A stretch of 64,000 nt of DNA, taken from NCBI RefSeq assembly GCF_036785885.1, contig NC_092312.1:13658001-13722000 (forward strand), read 5' to 3'. This stretch comes from Coffea arabica (lineage: Eukaryota; Streptophyta; Magnoliopsida; Gentianales; Rubiaceae). Both the position numbers and the translations under genes were made by a program. Positions 4,428 to 56,549 of the stretch are shown in pieces (position 1 is the first letter of the stretch; every line of letters begins with the position of its first letter). The notes beneath the pieces are model-generated. The model worked only from the letters and a program-made list of their open reading frames with translations. It did no database searches and was not told the origin of the DNA.

Positions 4428-7333
4428 AACCCCAAGGATTCTTTCTCATGTCATCATTATTGATAACAATAATGCCTAATGCTCCTTCAAATCAAAATTC
4501 CAGATAAATAAACAAATAAAGAAATAATGAAACAGTGGATTAGTTAAGTAAATTAATGCATTAATCTTGTGCTCTTCAAAAAATTTTTAATGAACAGGTC
4601 GGAATCTACGTCTAATCCCCCACCGTTTTTCGGTGATTTCTTTAAAAAAAAAAATCTTATTTTCTACTCATACTTTGATAATACATAACTTTTTTTTTTA
4701 ATGCCAAGCCATACATGGCTACGTTTAGAACAAGCATATATGAATTCAGTCATTTTACCTATGACAAGTTCTTGAAGCCTCAACTTCTTTTTCCCCCTAA
4801 TAAAGAGGTTGGCAGAAAAAAGTATTTAATTTGTGCCCCCCTCCACAATTAACACACTGCTACGTTTCAATATGACTCGAGGGCAACATATGCAGGGATT
4901 AAATTTTGTGTTCCTCAGTAGAAGTGGTATTCATTGGAAAGAAAAAGTAGTCGGAGCTATTCAAAGACTAACTAATAAAAAGGCACATAAATCCACACAA
5001 AAGAAGATGAAACTATGAAAGGCACCATGGCAAAAGGTGAAGACAATGACCTTTAGAAGTCACAACAAGAAGACACCTACGTAGAATGTAGAGGAAGAAG
5101 AACTCATCAAAAAGGCAAAAAAAAAAAAAATTGTAAAGAATTAGAGAAGCACCACCGGTTATATTTTCTCTTTGTGAATGTCTTTTTCCTTTTTTTTTTT
5201 TTTGGTCAAATTCATTTTCTGGATGGTTTTAAAGTAGAAGTAGCTCTTTCTGAACCCATAATTATAACAAGGAACCAACCCCTACCCCTTTCCACTAAAA
5301 AGCAACCACATAATAGAGACGAAAAGTCAAGAAAGTGGGATTCAATTGCAATTTGAGTCGTGTGGTCACTTATAGGTATAACAATTGTGGTGATTTAGCC
5401 CTAGATTTATTTTTTCCCCCTTTCCCCACCACCCCTCAAAAGAAGGGGAAGCAAAATGAACCAGATCTTATGGCCAAGGTTTTATGGTGAGCTAATATAT
5501 TAGGCTTTACTCTTTGAATTCTCAAAGGATGGGGACTGATCTTTTGAACTTGTGTTGTTAAATTATGTACTAATTAATAGATGTGGAATCCTTAAATCAC
5601 ATAGTTGAAGTCATAATCTTGTCTTTGTCAAGCATCTAATTACACATCCCACCAATAAGCTATTGGATTGTCAAAATCCAACCAGAAAAGTTGAACATAA
5701 ATATATTGATAGCTACATGAAGTGAAATGGTGAGCTGCTAAGATTTTAGTACTTTTTTCTTTCCTCAAAAAAAAAAAAGGAGATAGATGAATATATTATC
5801 GGAAAATACATGCATCCCCTTATAACATCTCCTGCACTTCCTCTTTTTCTTTTTTCTTTTTTTTTTGAAAAATATTTTCTCAAAAAAAAAAAAAAAAAAA
5901 AAAACTAGCCGTGCTCTAACTAGTGCTGCCATAAACACAATATATATATATATAACTTTCAGATTAGATATCAATGATTGTGGTGGCACCTTTTCACTGG
6001 CCCCCGGTGGTGGGAGTATCAGAAATTGCATTGGATCAGACCATTCCTGAGTTCCAGATGCTGGTCTAATAACCTTTCTAGGATGCTATTGGCATCAAAC
6101 AATAACATGCAACACAACAAAATGCTTAAAGAATTATGCCCACTTGCTAGGAAAGGCTTATTCTATTCTTGAAAGCATACTTGGGACAATTATTCCATCA
6201 ACCCCTCAAAGTATCCTTTACAATTAATCCACAACTCATGAGCTTTCCACAAAAGGGCTTCCTTTTCCTTTTTAATGAATAGAAAAAAGTTCACCATTGT
6301 TTATAACCTGGGAGGTGATAGGCTTTTTTAATCTATAACAAAAATTTACTATGTTATCAGCTTGAGCTTTGATCCGCATAAAGAAATATTATAGTAGGAT
6401 TAAAGTGCCTTTTACACGATCATTATCTTTGTATAGTATTCCACAGACAACAGATTTTAGAAAATGACTTCGTGTTTGATGTAATCTTTAGCCTGGGTCA
6501 CACACAAAAAGCCAAGAAGCACTAATTGTGCTGTGACAGATTTTTGCAAAATACTTGAAATTGACATAAACAATGCTTCGAGTCAATGCCGACACCTGAA
6601 CTAACTAAACTTCGAGACAATAAATTTTTTTTTTACTTCCTTTTCTCCCTAGTTTTGTTAATAATCAAGAGCCAACTACATAATTAATTAACCAAAAAAC
6701 AAGGGAGTTGATCATCTAGGTCTTTCTCTTTTTTTTTTCTTTCTTTCTCGAATTTCCTCAACAATCATGATTTTCAAAATTTAATTATCGATCATTTACA
6801 AAGTAGTGCTCCCATTTACCAAGATAGGCTAGAGATGTTTTGATGAACACATATATATATATATATCATCAAGAAACTAAAATACGTAGAAAATTTAAAA
6901 AAAAAAAAAAAAAACTTGAGTAGAGCAGGTCTGCTAATTGATCTCTTTATAGAACTCTAAAACTCCACAGCTCTTGTATCCATCCACATCACAAGATTAC
7001 ATAATCTCTAGATTACCGGAATTTGGAAAGCTGTAGTAAAGATTGAACAACATTACATTCCCAGAGCCTGGCCTATTTTATGAGAATTTTCTAGTGCTAC
7101 CAAGATCCTAAAAAACAAAAACAAAAGCTCTTCGGTCCAATTCTCAAACATGAACAACACAAATTTGGCAAACGGGATCCTATTTTTTACTCTTTTTACT
7201 TTTTCATATTCTTATATCCTTATATACAAAATATGCAGAAGAAATAAAAGTGAGTTCAAGATTGAGAACCCTAATAATCTTATACCGGAAAATTTGGAAA
7301 CAAAAATAAAAGGAAAAAATAACCGGTGATTAC

Positions 7334-14556: not shown

Positions 14557-15643
14557 GATTAATCACATTTTATCCCCTTAAAGAATACTCAATTTCTCAG
14601 TTTACCTCCTAACCTTAAATTTTGCTCACTTAACCCCCTTTAGGACAAAATTGTCCTTGCATTATTTTGACTTTTCATTTACCTTGTTTTTTTTTTCTTT
14701 TATTTCTTTTTAACTTTTTTCTTTATTTAATTCTTCCTCTTTCCCACAAAAATTTTCACCTTAATGATTGAAATTAAAAAAAAGAAATTGCAGAGATCTA
14801 TCTTCTCCTTAAATGATTAAAAAAATATTCAAATCACTTTCCTAAAATAAATTTTTTTAGCCTTTCAATTCTTTTAATTTTGAATTTTCCTCTTTCCTTT
14901 CTAGTTTCTCATTTTATTCTCAAGAAAATATCATAAGATGAAATTGTTTTCCTTTCTTTTATTTCTTTTTCTCTATCTTCTCTCTTTCATCCTTCCCAAT
15001 AGAAATTCCATTTAAACGAAAATTTTTATTTTGAGTTTTTAATTGTATATTTTTGGGTGAATGTTTAAAAGGCATCAAAAACTAATTTTAATTTTCTGTA
15101 TGATGCCACGTGTCACAAATTTCAATTGATGATTATTAATTAGGTCACAATTTCATCTCAAACTATTTAAAAAGATATTAGCATACTAGAAATTTAATTT
15201 ACTTTATATTTAGTAGTATATCCCAAAAAAAATAAAGTAACTAATTTTTTATTTATTTTTTATGAATTGTTAATTAGTCAATATGTTATTACAATCTAAA
15301 TTTGTTACTATTGTTATTAAAAATTATTTTATTCTAAACACAAAGTATATTGGTTTAAGTAATATATGAAATAATTATGTGCGTAGATAATATATACTTT
15401 GTTATAGTATAGATTCGAAAATTTTAAAAAATACAAAGAAAATGGACAAGTAGATAAAAGTTGGAAAAGGAGAAAAAAATGAAATAATAATTAAAAAAAA
15501 CTTATAATTATATCCTTTGAGAATTATCTTCTAAAGGTTTACACAATTAACCAAAATTTTTTCTCTAAATAAAAATTAGGCATTTGCTCCACCTAAAAAT
15601 TTGTGGATAAACCCCTAAATCGAAGCTGTAGTACTGTAGAATA

Positions 15644-15652
15644 AAAAATTTA
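15644..15652. repeat. Pack-MULE target duplication, left
   Basis: AAAAATTTA directly precedes the left inverted repeat. It is identical to the bases at 17326-17334 directly after the right inverted repeat. Confidence 0.88.
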
Positions 15653-15877
15653 GGGCAAATTATCCAATTGGCCCTTGAACTCTTTGTCTAGATAAAAATA
15701 AGCCCCTCATCTATTTTTTGCTGACTTTAAGCCCTCAAACTTGTAAAATTGAACACCTGTGACTCTTTTAGCCAGTTTCTCCGGTTTTACAACCGGAAGG
15801 CCAATTCACACGAATGACAGTGTGCTTTAAAGAAGGGCATTTTTGTCCACATATTCTAAGCAAAAAGTAAACAACTC
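15653..15877 (+). repeat. Pack-MULE terminal inverted repeat, left
   Basis: The 225-bp arm begins GGGCAAATTATCC. Its reverse complement matches 17101-17325 with about a dozen substitutions and no obvious indels. Confidence 0.88.
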
Positions 15878-15879
15878 CA

Positions 15880-16161
15880 TCGTCTTCGTTTTCCCTAACC
15901 CAACCAAACGGGCATAGATTTCCAGAGTTCTTAAGCTTCTGCAAATCGGGGATAACTGAGTCCAACTCAGTGCATTCGATTGAATTCAGTAGTAAGTCTG
16001 AGAGACAGGAATCGGATTCCGTAGAAAAGTCCAACTCATTCGTGGAGACGAAGGAATACGTGGCTCTCGAGATTTTAACGGGAAAGGTCGCAATTTCACG
16101 GTGGATTGTTGGTGCTTGGGCTTCATGTTGCATGAGATGCTCTACGGGATGATGCCGTTTA
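15880..16161 (+). pseudogene. Captured AGC protein kinase fragment
   Basis: Plus-strand translation shows plant AGC-kinase activation-loop text: 'SNSFVETKEYVALEI' (normally SNSFVGTEEYVAPEI) near 16041-16075. After a one-base frame slip near 16086 it continues as 'GRNFTVDCWCLGFMLHEMLY' and 'GMMPFK' (normally VDWWCLG...EMLYGTTPFKG). The Gly and Pro of the T-loop and one Trp are changed and the frame is broken, so no working kinase can be made. It covers only the T-loop to subdomain X region. It abuts the SEC15 piece, which is in the opposite orientation. Confidence 0.75.
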
Positions 16162-16162
16162 A

Positions 16163-17062
16163 GTGGTCATTGAAGATACCTGAAAATCCGAAGTTAATTG
16201 AAGCTTTCGGTTTTCAAAATAATACTGCCTGAAACGATCCTCCAGCCTAAGAGTCTGGTGAATATGATGGGCTTGGTACAAGGGCATCAAATCAAATCCC
16301 AAAGCCCCTGCCCCGCCGTTAGCATAGCCTTCCCTGTTATTCTCGCTGAATCCATCTAGCCCTTCATCATCTTCTTCCTCAAGCGCGTAAACGCAGTCTC
16401 GAAGACTGAGACGACTCTGCTCCTCGGCTTGCCTCTGCTTGATCTTGAGCTCCTCCTCTCTTTGCCTAGCAGCTGAGGCTTGCCCAATCTCGAGTTGACC
16501 TAGATTCCGACTCACTATTCGACTCTCCACCAGCCAGTCCCCAAACTCCTTGCTTACCTTCCTCTTTATATGAGCTCGAATCTCGAGGATCTACTTCTCC
16601 AGCATGCGCCGAAGAGTAGACGACGGCATCTTTTTTAGAAACTCACGCTCAATCGAGTCCATGCACTTGAGGGCCATGTAGAAGTTGTTGTTGGAGAGAT
16701 GAAAATTGGCTCGGGGGCAGAGTTCAACTAATTGAGCACAGGTCCAAAAAGATTCAATGGCAAGTGATGTTCTTGCATTTGTTGCGGGCCTCGACGAAGG
16801 AATCCAGTGAGATGAGCAAGGGGAGGGCGATGGACTGAAGCTAGGAGTTGGAAATGAAGAAAGAGGATTTGAGAGAATCGACATCGGAGAGGAGAGAGCG
16901 GAAGTCGTCGACTGCCATGATGAAGTCTTGGTAGTGGGCCCTACAGACGTCCTCAATTTCAGACTCTTTGGATCGGGAGAAGTGTTGGAGGTGGTGAAGA
17001 AGGGTCTCGAGTTCACCGGAGGTGAAGGCCTTGCAGATGAAGGGGCTTAAGTCCTCACCATT
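16163..17062 (-). pseudogene. Captured SEC15 (exocyst) fragment
   Basis: On the minus strand the sequence opens with 'NGEDLSPFICKAF', 'SEIEDVCRAHYQDFIMAVDD' and 'LLSDVDSLKSSL'. It continues in other frames with 'NNFYMALKCMDSIEREFLKK', 'SRNLGQLEIGQASAARQREE', 'RQAEEQSRLSLRDCVYALEE' and 'FDLMPLYQAHHIHQTL', ending near 'QLTSDFQVSSM'. These are N-terminal to mid-region segments of plant SEC15, an exocyst subunit that tethers secretory vesicles at the plasma membrane. At least two frame changes and in-frame stops break it; open pieces are at 16591-17016 and 16159-16530. It has no introns across about 300 residues. Plant SEC15 genes, as I recall, have few or none here, so this does not prove an RNA intermediate. 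Confidence 0.85.
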
Positions 17063-17100
17063 ACAGATTGCAGATTAGGTCAGGGAAAAGGAAGAAAATA

Positions 17101-17325
17101 GAGTTGTTCACTCTTTGCTTAGAAAATGCGGACAAAAATGCCCTTTTTTAAAGTACACTGTCATTTGTGTGAATTGGCCTTCCGGTTGCAAAATCGGAGA
17201 AACTGGCTAAAAGGGTTACAGGTGTTCAATTTTACAAGTTTGAAGGCTTAAAGTTAGCAAAAAATAGATGAGGGGCTTATTTTTATCTAGACAAAGAGTT
17301 CAAGGGCCAATTGGATAATTTGCCC
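17101..17325 (-). repeat. Pack-MULE terminal inverted repeat, right
   Basis: The 225-bp arm ends GGATAATTTGCCC. It probably contributes DNA to the distal PEX7 promoter, because it ends 137 bp before that start codon. Confidence 0.88.
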
Positions 17326-17334
17326 AAAAATTTA
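17326..17334. repeat. Pack-MULE target duplication, right
   Basis: AAAAATTTA directly follows the right inverted repeat and matches 15644-15652 exactly. Confidence 0.88.
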
Positions 17335-17461
17335 CAGATAAACCCCCTAAACCAAATTTGTATACATTCCGAAGAAAAAATCGACTTTTTATTTTTTAAG
17401 ACTACTGTTACAGAATTCTCAACCGAACCACCACCTTCCGCCTCCTTCGGCCACCACCACC

Positions 17462-20400
17462 ATGCCAGTCTTCAAGGTCCCATTTAACGGCTACTCCGTG
17501 AAATTCAGCCCATTTTACGAATCCCAACTTGCTGTCGCCACCGCCCAGAACTTCGGCATCCTCGGAAACGGCCGTCTCCACGTCCTCCAACTCTCCCCAA
17601 GTCCAGCAAACCCCGGTCAACCCATCATTGAGCTATCCTCCTTCGACACTGCCGACGGGGTCTACGATTGCTGCTGGTCAGAGTCCCACGATTCCCTCAT
17701 CGTCGCCGCCGTAGCTGACGGTTCCGTCAAGCTATACGACCTCTCCTTGCCCCCAACTGCCAATCCTATTAGGTCCCTTCAAGAACACACCAGAGAAGTC
17801 CACTCGGTGGATTACAATGTTGTGAGGAAAGATTCTTTTCTGTCGAGTTCTTGGGATGACACGGTTAAGCTTTGGACGGTTGATCGGCCGTCCAGTGTTA
17901 GGACTTTCAAGGAACATGCTTATTGTGTTTATTCTACTGCTTGGAATCCTAGACATGCTGATGTTTTTGCTTCGGCTTCAGGGGATTGTACTGCTCGCAT
18001 TTGGGATGTCAGGGAACCAGGTTAGAGTTTGAATTTACTTCGACGTTATAATTTTACTCACGATTATGGAATAAAATTTGCTTGACTTTTCTTCGTTCAA
18101 ATTGAATCGAATGTTTTGTTTATAGCATTTGGGATGTTCGAAACCAGGTCAAATAGGAAGCTTGAGCGTGGTCTTAATGCTTGTAACTTGTAAGGACTTC
18201 AGTTTGAGCGTAGTCTTGACTTTGTGCAAGTGCATTATATATTGAATGTTTCAACTTAAGGCATTTGTGATGTTTGGAAGCTGGTTAGAGCCAGAATTTT
18301 GAGCCGTTTTTTGGTCTTTTTATCCTTATATGGAATTGATATGTTCTTTTGCTGTAAAGTTGAGAAATGAGTGGTGACTTGTTTTGAGTAGATTGCATGT
18401 TTTCGTTTAAAACCTTTGGTGCCTGGGAACCTGATTATTAGAAGAATTTTGTAACACATTTGATCGTATTTTGATGGATGCAAGGACTGTATGTTGTTTT
18501 TATGCTGTTGTTTTGCTCTGAAGTTGAGAATATGATGCTGTATTTTGACTTTTTCGATTACATTATGTTTTGTTTGAAGAATTTGGGAAGTTTGGGAATC
18601 ATGTTAGACTTGGAATTTATAGCCTTTTTGTGGTACTTCTATTCTGGTAAGAATTTGATGTTATTGTGCCATGAAGCGTTAAATGTTGGAGTTGATTGTT
18701 TTGTTCGAATTTACTTTCACTCATGAAGTTTCTGGCTGAAACGTTTCATTGTGCGTAATGCAAGAAATAATTGGCACAAATAGTAGGTTATGGAATAAAA
18801 ATTTTGATTGTTTGACGGAGGTAAAAAAATTGGCATGGATTTGTCCTGTGAGTTAAGGGTGATTTCAGTTTGTATTAGTTTTCAAAGTCATGAGTTGAGA
18901 GCAGTGATTGGTTGGTCTATGCTAAATGCAGAATGCTGCTAAAGTGTTAAAGGTTTTATTGAACAAATAGACTGGGTAAGATTAGGTGTCTTACCACATA
19001 TAGGAAGGCAGAAATTATTCTAATGTTGGAAGTGAGGTTTGAGTTTTGGGGAAATTGTTCTAGTAAAAGCATAATGAGACTAAGGTAATTGTGCATGAAT
19101 GAGAGTTTGGATTGATTAAAAGCTTTGCTCGGGGAAAAAAAGAAGTTACAAACTTAAAAATGACTTTGGATTATACCATGTCAGTATCTTTTGTTTTCCT
19201 TTTCTCATTTTAGCATCTGTAAGTTTCACTTCTGCTACATAAGGTCAAATTATGGTGTTGAAGAAACAATAACTCAAAAAGGAAGGTAACAATACTTGTG
19301 GCTGATAATGAAAATTGAATGTAGATGCCGTGCAAGGATTATGAACTAAAACTTGTTATAAGGGAAGAAGTCTTAAGCAACCCAAAACTTGATGAAGGAG
19401 CACATTTTAGGCATGTGTTGGACATGTATGCTTCCCTAAGACAATTGAATGCTGATAATTTACTTGTTCCCTAAATTGTGAAGGTCACAGTTGTAGTGTG
19501 CAATTGTTCATATTTCATTCTGTTGACTCTCACAACCAGGTTATCATAATAAAATACTGCTTTAAAGTTAGGGAAGGACTTTAGCTGAATAAGGGGTGTA
19601 AATACCGTAGAATAAGAGGGGGAAGAGAGTTATTTCGTGTTGAGCCTCCAGTTGGCTTCCAAGATCAACAGATCAGAATGTGATCGGCAATAATGAATCT
19701 TCCAATACTCCCGCATTTGGAGAGGAGGAGTTTTTTTTTTTTTTTTTTAAAACATGATTTTCAATTGTGGTCTTACTATCAATAGACTGGATCATAACAA
19801 TGAGACATGGAAGATAATCAAGATAATGGAGATCTAGGCGTTATTTTTTCATACTAAATCACAGAGGCTCCAGCAGCATGTGAAATAAAGCACTCAAACA
19901 ATTTTTAATATGTTCTGTCTTTCACAATACTCACATTGCTTGGATTGCCTTTTTTTTTTCTTTTCGAAATTGTGAAAAATGCCTCAAATGGAAATGCCAT
20001 CCAGCCTCACTATTAAGCTATTCAGCATATAGGAGATATAGAAATTACGGAAATCTGAATTCTATTATTTCTACATTGCTTGAAAGTCACTATTATGGGT
20101 AAGGTACGTCACTGCTCACTCATCCAATTAGGCTCCCCTTTCTTTCAGAATTAAATGCTTGTGAATTCCTAAAAGGTTTGGAGGGCAAAATATTAAATTT
20201 CTTCATTGAATATTGCATTGAGGAAGAGTGCAGAAATCTAAGTAATCCAAGAATCATGCTATTTGTTAGCTGCTTACCGAGCAAGCCTTTGCTTAAACCA
20301 TATGTGACCTAACATTCTGCAGTCAAAGTCACCAGTATCTGAATTTCTGAATCTTGATTTTTGCAGCATCGACCATGATTTTACCCGCACATGAGTTTGA

Positions 20401-20773
20401 AATTCTTTCTTGTGACTGGAATAAGTATGACGATTGTGTCATTGCTACTGCATCAGTTGATAAGTCAATTAAAGTTTGGGATGTGAGGAGCTTTAGGGTT
20501 CCTGTGGCAGTTCTAAATGGACATGGCTATGCAGTAAGGAAAGTGAAGTTCTCACCGCATAGAGGAAGTGTGATTGCTTCTTGTTCATATGATATGACTG
20601 TATGTTTGTGGGATTACATGGTCGAGGATGCACTTATAGGGAGGTACGATCATCATACTGAGTTCACAGTTGGGGTAGACATGAGCGTACATGTGGAAGG
20701 GCTTTTAGCAAGCACTGGATGGGATGAGCTTGTTTATGTTTGGCAACATGGGATGGACCCTAGAGCGCCTTGA
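17462..20773 (+). CDS. PEX7, peroxisomal PTS2 receptor
   Basis: PEX7 is a WD40 receptor that binds PTS2 signals in the cytosol and, with PEX5, delivers cargo such as thiolase to peroxisomes. Exon 1 is 17462-18020 (donor GTTAGA) and exon 2 is 20367-20773 (acceptor TTTTTGCAG). The join is in phase 1 and yields 321 residues, close to the roughly 317 of Arabidopsis PEX7. The N terminus 'MPVFKVPFNGYSVKFSPFYE' is typical. WD units end in 'GSVKLYDL', 'DTVKLWTV', 'CTARIWDV', 'KSIKVWDV', 'MTVCLWDY' and 'ELVYVWQH'. The first ATG is used, just after a CACCACCAC-rich leader. An AATAAA lies at 20906-20911. The gene looks intact. The Pack-MULE ends 137 bp upstream, so the core promoter is short or shared with its right arm. 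Confidence 0.95.
18021..20366 (+). other. PEX7 intron
   Basis: This single 2,346-bp intron has GT at its start and a pyrimidine-rich 'gatttttgcag' end. It holds no recognisable gene. A poly-T run lies near 19732-19748. Confidence 0.85.
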
Positions 20774-23006
20774 AAAAGGGAAGTTTCTTTTCTTTATTTT
20801 TTTTAATTTTTATTTTGTTCTTACATGAGACAACTTGCATTTGCTGAAAAATGAGAAAATTGTACAACTTTCCATTGGGATCTTTTGTTGTACATGTTGT
20901 GAAGTAATAAAATTTTTCTTTGTTGACTGTATGATTAGGAATGCAATGTATCACATGATACTGACACTTCTGATGTCTGTTTAAGAATTGGATATCTATT
21001 GTCTTCTTTCACTAGTGGTTCAGAGCAGTTGAGAAACATACAAAATGTGAAGAATTCTTTTTTTTTTTTTTTATTTCCTTTTGTTTGAGCATACACTCTT
21101 CTTTCCCCTTTCAATAATGAGAAACAAAAGTATTTATGCGTGCAACTCCATCTGCCAATCAACTGTATACTTTGAGTTACCCGTGTTGTGAGCATTGGAT
21201 ATCAGGCCTTTACTTTGTGCTTCTGTAGATTGGCCTTCTGACGCATATTATGGAGTCATGGAAGTTTACTGGTTTTACAATGCTCAAATTAAATCATTTG
21301 GTGGACATTTTGTTTGGCTGGTTTCAATAGCACAATCATGGATTCCAATTGGGGCATTTTATGATTGGTGGAAAATTGGGCATGCTGCTGTGTGGTTCAA
21401 TGTGGTCTTTTAGATGACTAGGGTGTAAAAGTTTGACAGGTGAGATTATCATCAAGGCTTTAGTATCTTGTGGAAAAGATGAAAATGGGATACTCTGCAA
21501 AATTTCCTCTTTCCCCCTTTGTTGATAAGTGTAATATCCTCGATACATAAAGCAAACAAGTGCTCTCTTTAGTTCTCTTTTCTGATTTTCTTGATGTTTT
21601 TTAGCTTCAGTATTTTTGGTCGTTTGAGCAGAGATATGGATGTTTTGACATCTTTTCTTGCTATCTTAGTTGCTCACAGGATTTACTGTGGGGATGGCGT
21701 AGTAGATGATGTATGCTTAGTTATTCTTTGCTAATGACTTTTGGAATACAAACATAAAAACTCCTAAAAACTCTGGAGAGTGCGGATGTATGGTAATAGG
21801 TAACGTATGTATGGATGTCTGGATCTAGAGTCTGAATGGTGGTCAATAGTTTGCAGAAGGTAATGCCTATTGTAAAGTGATAAACTTTAAATCATAACAA
21901 ATTAATTTTGAAAATGGTCTGACGTTTCTTTTTGACGTTTAAATCTTGAAGCATCTCCTTTTTGTTAATTATTTCTTCCGGACATTAGGGTAAAAACAAG
22001 AGATCCATTCAGTATTCAAACAAAACTCCAGTTACACCGCAATGCATAATGAAATATCGGGTGGTAGCAGCAATCATATCATAGTGCGTAACTATGTCGA
22101 TTTTCTCACGAGTCACGGCTTTGGGAGTTTCATATAGCTTCCTACAATCATCTTTTGGTAGGGATGACTTTCCCAAGTGCCTACCAAAAATTTGAGCTAA
22201 ATTATTTCCTTGACAATAACATCCTGGAAAACCAAAACTGGACTAGCTGAAACCTCAATAACAAAAGTATACAGAGAAAAGGTCCATATAGGGAGAGTTG
22301 AACACAACTTATTAACATGTACAGCACATAAGCATAAGAGAAAATGAGTTCAAAAAGCATAAATAAGTATCAGATCTAATTTCTGCTATGACAGTTGTCT
22401 ATTTTGGCCTCTGCAAAACTTTCCACAGAATCTAGTTTGATTGCTGGAGCTGTTGACACCTTCAAAACTGAGTAGGACCGAAGGTCTGAAATAACCTGAG
22501 ACATTTTAAACACAAATTGGGACATATAATATTGAAAAGGAAGTTGATATGCACACTAGCTCAGACTTGCTGTTTTTGACAACTGAGTTGCATGGCAACT
22601 CTGGCGGTCAATGATGTGCCTGGAGTATAAGCTCTAACTGTGGCTTCTGCAACAGAACTCAGTATGTGGGAAAAGTTTTGATAAAAATGACAGTCTGAAT
22701 CTTTGTCAGGTTAGCTTTAGATACCCAACCGTGCCAATTTGCGCTCTAGCATTGGTTATTACTAGAGCAATTTTGTGATAATTCTAAACTCAAACATAAA
22801 AAATGGTGGATATATCTTCTAGTTTTCTCAAATTTGTGGTAACTGATCGAAGGCATAAATGTGATTTCCTTAGAATTAAGAGAAGCCATAAGCAGGCAAC
22901 TAAACAGAAATCAATAGCACTTAAGTCAATACCTGATTCACAGTATCGCAAATGCACATCCTGCCATTTCATTGAGATTTCCAAAAAAGAAATGGAAACG
23001 TAACAA
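20774..23006. other. Intergenic between converging genes
   Basis: The stretch holds the PEX7 3' UTR with its polyadenylation signal, then AT-rich DNA leading into the 3' end of the Raf-like kinase on the other strand. Open frames at 20935-21548 show no recognised motif. Confidence 0.55.

Positions 23007-50009: not shown

Positions 50010-56549
<6,540 letters not shown>

Follow-up and report, generated by a model that had tools for sequence, protein, structure and literature searches.

A Pack-MULE carrying a kinase-SEC15 chimaera, with its donor genes, sibling copies, empty sites and transposase-bearing relatives in one genome

Introduction

Pack-MULEs are Mutator-like elements that carry pieces of host genes; transcripts or small RNAs from their cargo are reported in some cases, without being a requirement for membership. 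They have been described from several eudicots. Published counts give 220 of them in tomato and 46 in Arabidopsis (PMC3310237) as well as 1,447 in sacred lotus (PMC4053705), and the MULEs of grapevine are reported to have captured genes (PMC2528002). A preliminary description of the locus studied here had regarded eudicot examples as less often shown; going by these reports, they are not scarce in print. Models of capture are treated in PMC8277862 and PMC8903248: FoSTeST or gap filling is offered as explanation for multicopy Pack-TIR elements of animals (PMC8277862), and the Pack-TYPE fusion model has been published for several superfamilies (PMC8903248). A literature search combining Pack-MULE with Camellia or exocyst returned nothing on the arm family described below, and we make no claim as to its unpublished status; in one exocyst paper found in this way, exocyst appears as a gene on a sequenced sugarcane BAC.

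Here, we describe an element found in a stretch of 64,000 nucleotides (the window, i.e., the whole stretch of DNA analysed) and compare it with its donor genes, its sibling copies and its transposase-bearing relatives in the same genome.

Results

Structure of the element

Positions 15653-17325 of the window (G000:C3:13673653-13675325 in the genome) almost certainly represent a complete non-autonomous Mutator-like element of the Pack-MULE type. The features of the locus are:

15644..15652, no strand: left target-site duplication AAAAATTTA, present as a single copy at the C4 empty site
15653..15905, plus strand: left terminal inverted repeat, 251 columns of which align to the right arm; followed from 15906 by the kinase match
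15906..16168, plus strand: captured protein-kinase fragment of 263 bp in sense orientation, 91% identical to genes on C2 and C1
16161..16168, no strand: chimaera junction with 8-bp microhomology, from the comparison of donors and element copies
16161..17073, minus strand: captured coding fragment of SEC15 (exocyst EXOC6/Sec15) in antisense orientation (Pfam PF20651), 93% identical to two open-frame genes
17075..17325, minus strand: right terminal inverted repeat of 251 bp, from the inverted-repeat search and BLAST
17326..17334, no strand: right target-site duplication AAAAATTTA, an exact match, compared with the C4 empty site
17462..18025, plus strand: first open frame (187 codons) of a WD40 gene with a near-identical C4 gene that lacks the element

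The element starts with GGGCAAATTATCC and ends with the reverse complement of GGGCAAATTATCC. Its arms align in BLAST over 251 columns with 92.4% identity (the preliminary description had named a value well below 80% as speaking against its reading) and thus form the long terminal inverted repeats of high identity that are typical of Pack-MULEs. The arms had been put at 225 bp with few differences. Indeed, the first 225 bp are 94.2% identical, but the repeat continues further: counted from the ends inward, 50/50, 98/100, 212/225 and 231/250 positions match before the agreement drops to 236/270, and the true arm length is about 251-253 bp. An inverted-repeat search of the window returned a 259-nt inverted pair (92%) that extends a few bases into the flanks. 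The proposed perfect target duplication was found as well, with AAAAATTTA standing exactly on either side, i.e., in the size of about 9 bp expected for such elements. The 22-nt arm tip (up to three mismatches allowed) occurs within the window only at the two element ends, and it was not found in 100 shuffles. Furthermore, the six read-through frames of the interior contain no transposase family in Pfam at E≤0.1, in agreement with the transposase absence originally noted.

The end of the element lies 136 bp before the ATG of the WD40 gene, which we take to be PEX7 or PEX7-like (the database matches are WD40-type only). This gene has one other DNA match in the genome, the near-identical copy on C4. 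The gene with the element and its uninterrupted partner provide a natural test of promoter effects.

At another place in the window (54132-56549, plus strand) there is an uninterrupted gene of 805 codons, presumably CDC48. Its C4 partner and the 87% identical copies on C11/C12 are likewise uninterrupted. Since other relatives (C11/C12, C1/C2, C7/C8) match in several exon-like pieces, this gene may be an old, conserved retrogene.

Captured fragments and their donors

The preliminary description had noted host-gene sequence inside the element, and this sequence can now be named. Pfam detects the N-terminal domain of Sec15 in two interior frames (E 9e-18 and 2e-13); the kinase match is weak (E 0.058, under the Pfam cut-off), and its assignment was later borne out by DNA matches. 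We take the kinase to be AGC/UNICORN-like, Pfam itself giving protein kinase. The interior is wholly assigned: element positions 254-516 match the kinase (91%) and 509-1421 match SEC15 in antisense (93%), the remainder being arm. The cargo therefore has a protein-kinase part of 263 bp and a SEC15 part of 913 bp, fused to each other in opposite coding orientations. The kinase piece lies inside one open frame of its donor, and the SEC15 piece corresponds to about codons 31-336 of the donor. Introns are absent from both pieces, so that an RNA intermediate may have served as template. The GC content of the cargo is 48.5%, versus 35.4% for the window. One cargo frame was also compared with the PDB, without a match at E 0.001.

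At the junction, both pieces overlap in AAGGGGTC, which is present in the two donor copies compared (L043 for the kinase, L041 for SEC15) and in four of the five element copies; the window copy has AAGTGGTC instead. Microhomology of at least 8 bp occurred in 1.1e-4 of 1,000,000 random junctions between the two genes.

The donor genes are found elsewhere in the same genome: SEC15 in two copies on C2, the kinase on C1 and C2. Both SEC15 donors have uninterrupted frames (828 codons stop to stop), and at the two kinase loci the captured part lies within an open frame. One of the kinase loci (L044) has two exon-sized open frames; at the other (L043), only the frame with the captured part passes the 150-codon listing. 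Between the kinase and SEC15 donors there are several Mb if the C2 kinase locus is taken; otherwise, they are on separate chromosomes (C1 and C2). No arms were detected near the donors by whole-element BLAST, which covered 8 kb at each of the four loci. The majority sequence of the cargo differs from the first SEC15 donor at 44/913 sites (codon positions 15/7/22), and the two SEC15 donors differ from each other at 9/915 sites over the captured region. An attempt to pick one of them as the donor was not decisive, as the cargo majority matches one gene at six of the differing sites and the other at three.

The two SEC15 copies (L041 at C2:54.8 Mb and L042 at C2:56.5 Mb) are in opposite orientation and 94% identical over 5.3 kb. 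Both are on C2, unlike the kinase and other genes, which are distributed over the two partner chromosomes; the pair may have arisen by segmental duplication or may reflect a misplaced haplotype.

We regard the cargo as a passenger in decay and not as a coding gene. A 2-bp deletion in SEC15 (at about 16764, reckoned via donor coordinates) breaks the frame and is common to all five copies, so the SEC15 frame was already broken before the spread; the window copy has, in addition, lost 1 bp of the kinase piece relative to its four siblings. A coding function was rejected for these reasons.

Sibling copies and age of the insertion

The genome search suggested in the preliminary description revealed four further full copies of the cargo. 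These are all on C4, the window copy being on C3 (all 20 search candidates were scored). Each of the five has its own flanks and its own target duplication (that of L013 sits in a TAA repeat), i.e., the element moved after capture. In the five-copy alignment (1632 gap-free columns), the window copy has 37 private changes, and the others have 22, 16, 10 and 9. Relative to the other copies, 34 of the 37 window-private changes are C-to-T or G-to-A, as would be expected of methylated DNA. A sixth relative (L045, 84% alike) retains the left arm, the kinase piece minus 12 bases and the first 10 SEC15 bases beyond the junction. It was considered as a kinase-only precursor, but this was rejected, as the same kinase-SEC15 junction is present and the copy is thus a truncated relative.

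The preliminary description had concluded from the arm identity that the insertion is not old. The arms turned out to be a poor clock, and dating by them was rejected: among the 13 positions at which the arms mismatch within their first 225 bp, only 7 are private to the window copy, the other 6 being common to at least one sibling, so that the arms were already diverging before the window insertion. Better bounds are given by the absence from the partner chromosome and by the 37 private changes per 1632 gap-free columns. As the flanks are 95-97% identical and the private change of the element is 2.3%, the insertion would be younger than the C3/C4 split and probably not very recent.

Empty sites on the partner chromosome

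The hits of one protein search were paired on C1/C2, C3/C4, C7/C8, C11/C12, C19/C20 and others, as would be seen in either a phased diploid or a polyploid of recent origin. An empty site had been suggested as a check in relatives; here, the same genome provided it, on the partner chromosome, in place of a related species. At this C4 site (L068), the flanks of the window copy meet with one AAAAATTTA: window 15158-15652 corresponds to L068 4254-4753 (95.0%) and window 17326-22110 to L068 4745-9519 (96.9%), and these two L068 intervals have exactly 9 bp in common. Flank alignments likewise overlap by 9 bp at the C3 partner sites of L012, L010 and L011, the L010 partner site being rearranged nearby (an inverted piece), with one flank aligning at 74.5%. 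The partner of L013 has no element, and a TAA repeat there blocks exact reading of the duplication. In total, the element is absent from the partner chromosome for all five copies, and the single target copy is readable at four.

The arm family and its cargo

A 27-base arm tip (up to two mismatches) occurs genome-wide at 354 ends (179 forward, 175 reverse), compared with 0 for a control pattern. We read 39 paired elements, chosen from the best arm matches and the first listed tips, as well as L076; L019 was left out, with only one arm found. Note that this choice favours good matches and is a non-random sample. Exact duplications of at least 9 bp flank 36 of the 40 paired elements (16/19, 19/20 and 1/1), two of these duplications (L013, L055) being in simple repeats. 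Of the remainder, L024 and L059 have one mismatch in nine, L025 has 7 bp with a shift, and L023 has none.

The 37 elements without transposase fall into 17 cargo groups, nine of them multi-copy. Pfam names the cargo in at least ten of the 17 groups (SEC15, cytidine deaminase, purine permease, P450, dynamin, PRA1, thaumatin, HhH-GPD, raffinose synthase and leucine-rich repeats); seven had no Pfam match in the one or two frames scanned per group. The cargo groups of L016, L062, L063, L065 and L014 have common blocks in differing combinations (leucine-rich repeat matches in L016 and L065, raffinose synthase in L062, deaminase in L014), which suggests exchange between elements of the arm family.

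L024 (C4:31261569-31265569), with purine-permease cargo, is situated about 630 bp from another arm (C4:31259989-31260963) that is 82% like the window arm, and a degenerate transposase piece is located about 1.1 kb beyond. Such adjacent insertions would correspond to the arrangement from which new captures are proposed to arise.

Transposase-bearing relatives

The search for an autonomous MULE, also suggested at the outset, led to three relatives of 6.0-6.2 kb with a MuDR-type transposase (L046, L047, L076) that have 9-bp duplications and share the termini of the window element, their tips being identical or one base off. Their arms are 81-84% like the window arms. Above the Pfam cut-offs, L047 contains the MuDR DNA-binding, MULE and SWIM domains; L046 has MULE and SWIM only, its DNA-binding domain being under the cut-off and its frame interrupted by a stop. 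The transposase frame of L076 is 99% like that of L047. A search with the L047 transposase frame, in which 89 of 2297 candidates were scored, gave at least 17 places (the query included) at ≥92% over ≥94% of the query, six of them without a stop, and at least three shorter pieces at 95-97%. Among the four transposase loci read (L046, L047, L076, L077), none has arms ≥90% like those of the window element. The three relatives are plausible candidate helpers, and such a transposase may move the window element in trans.

L077 (C15:38625001-38632500; transposase 60% identical) was rejected as a relative of the arm family, as these arms are absent. Of the arm sequence it has only an 18-base stretch (arm positions 180-197), present in mirrored orientation at 1594-1611 and 6910-6927. 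This stretch is perhaps a conserved binding site of the transposase.

Discussion

The claim of a complete Pack-MULE made in the preliminary description was borne out by the arms, the target duplication, the missing transposase, the captured gene pieces, the further copies, the transposase-bearing relatives and the empty site. We propose that the interior of an ancestral element of the arm family would have been rebuilt by copying, with a template switch from the kinase gene to the SEC15 gene at AAGGGGTC. The chimaera would then have been moved by a MuDR-type transposase supplied in trans, with a 9-bp duplication per move, and one such move would have placed it in front of the WD40 (PEX7-like) gene, 136 bp from the ATG.

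Copying with template switching is favoured over the carrying off of a flanked segment, because the donors have no flanking arms in the 8 kb read for each and the junction has 8-bp microhomology. The fusion model, according to which host DNA between two adjacent family insertions was mobilised together with them, is in print for several superfamilies (PMC8903248). L013 and L024 do have other family arms nearby, the one next to L024 being followed by a transposase piece, and some cargo groups have modules in common. For the present chimaera it appears unlikely, since the two source genes are distinct and are either separated by several Mb on C2 or located on C2 and C1, since their pieces are joined at the microhomology in opposite coding orientation, and since no arm was found in the 8 kb read per donor locus. 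Some observations go against the overall explanation proposed here. The arms of the transposase-bearing relatives are only 81-84% like those of the window element, the captured pieces have no introns, and the L010 partner site is rearranged nearby. Moreover, the cargo majority is about 5% off its donors, versus 6/225 differences between the majority-rule arms of the five copies, so that homogenisation of the arms or faster decay of the cargo must be assumed.

That the structure is a gene-derived inverted repeat or a segmental duplication and not a transposon would fit an interior that is gene sequence end to end, but is next to impossible: the same tip recurs 354 times genome-wide (control pattern 0), with differing interiors and, in most cases, with own 9-bp duplications. 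An inverted gene duplication was rejected on this ground. Clean loss from the partner chromosome, with the empty sites as excision products, is very improbable. The partner lacks every one of the five copies, whichever chromosome carries the element (C4 but not C3 for four copies, C3 but not C4 for one), the four readable sites each have a single target copy, and footprints usually remain after excision of a MULE. All five full copies and the truncated older relative L045 are on C3/C4, a pair that makes up 12.9% of the genome; the chance of five on one pair, the first being given, is 0.129^4 (about 3e-4), a value uncorrected for the nine multi-copy groups. We nevertheless consider it doubtful that linked moves within this pair were the main route by which the chimaera spread. 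Each of the other eight multi-copy groups is distributed over more than one pair among the elements read, and unlinked moves are expected of Mutator elements. The clustering on C3/C4 may be chance, given that nine multi-copy groups were looked at.

The finding is real, well preserved and of a long-known kind, and it leaves the picture of Pack-MULEs unchanged. It is an unusually complete worked example, with donors, junction, siblings, empty sites and transposase relatives in one genome, and the arm family (17 cargo groups in 37 elements) would let template switching versus neighbour fusion be tested on many junctions.

As described in the respective sources, the Pack-MULEs of rice, tomato and Arabidopsis (PMC3310237) and of sacred lotus (PMC4053705) resemble the window element in their long inverted repeats, gene fragments and missing transposase, and in the presence of several copies of one chimaera of 1-2 kb. 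The GC-richer cargo is likewise in line with reports for rice and maize. Unlike those plant elements as they are presented there, the window element has its own arm sequence and its own cargo, two donors in opposite orientation, and five copies on one chromosome pair. The grapevine transduplicating MULEs (PMC2528002) also carry off and amplify pieces of cellular genes, but belong to other families with other cargo. With the animal Pack-TIR elements (PMC8277862), the window element shares microhomology at breakpoints, donors on other chromosomes and several copies after capture; its microhomology is 8 bp, versus a reported median of 2 bp (range 1-36), and lies between two cargo pieces, unlike that described for the animal elements.
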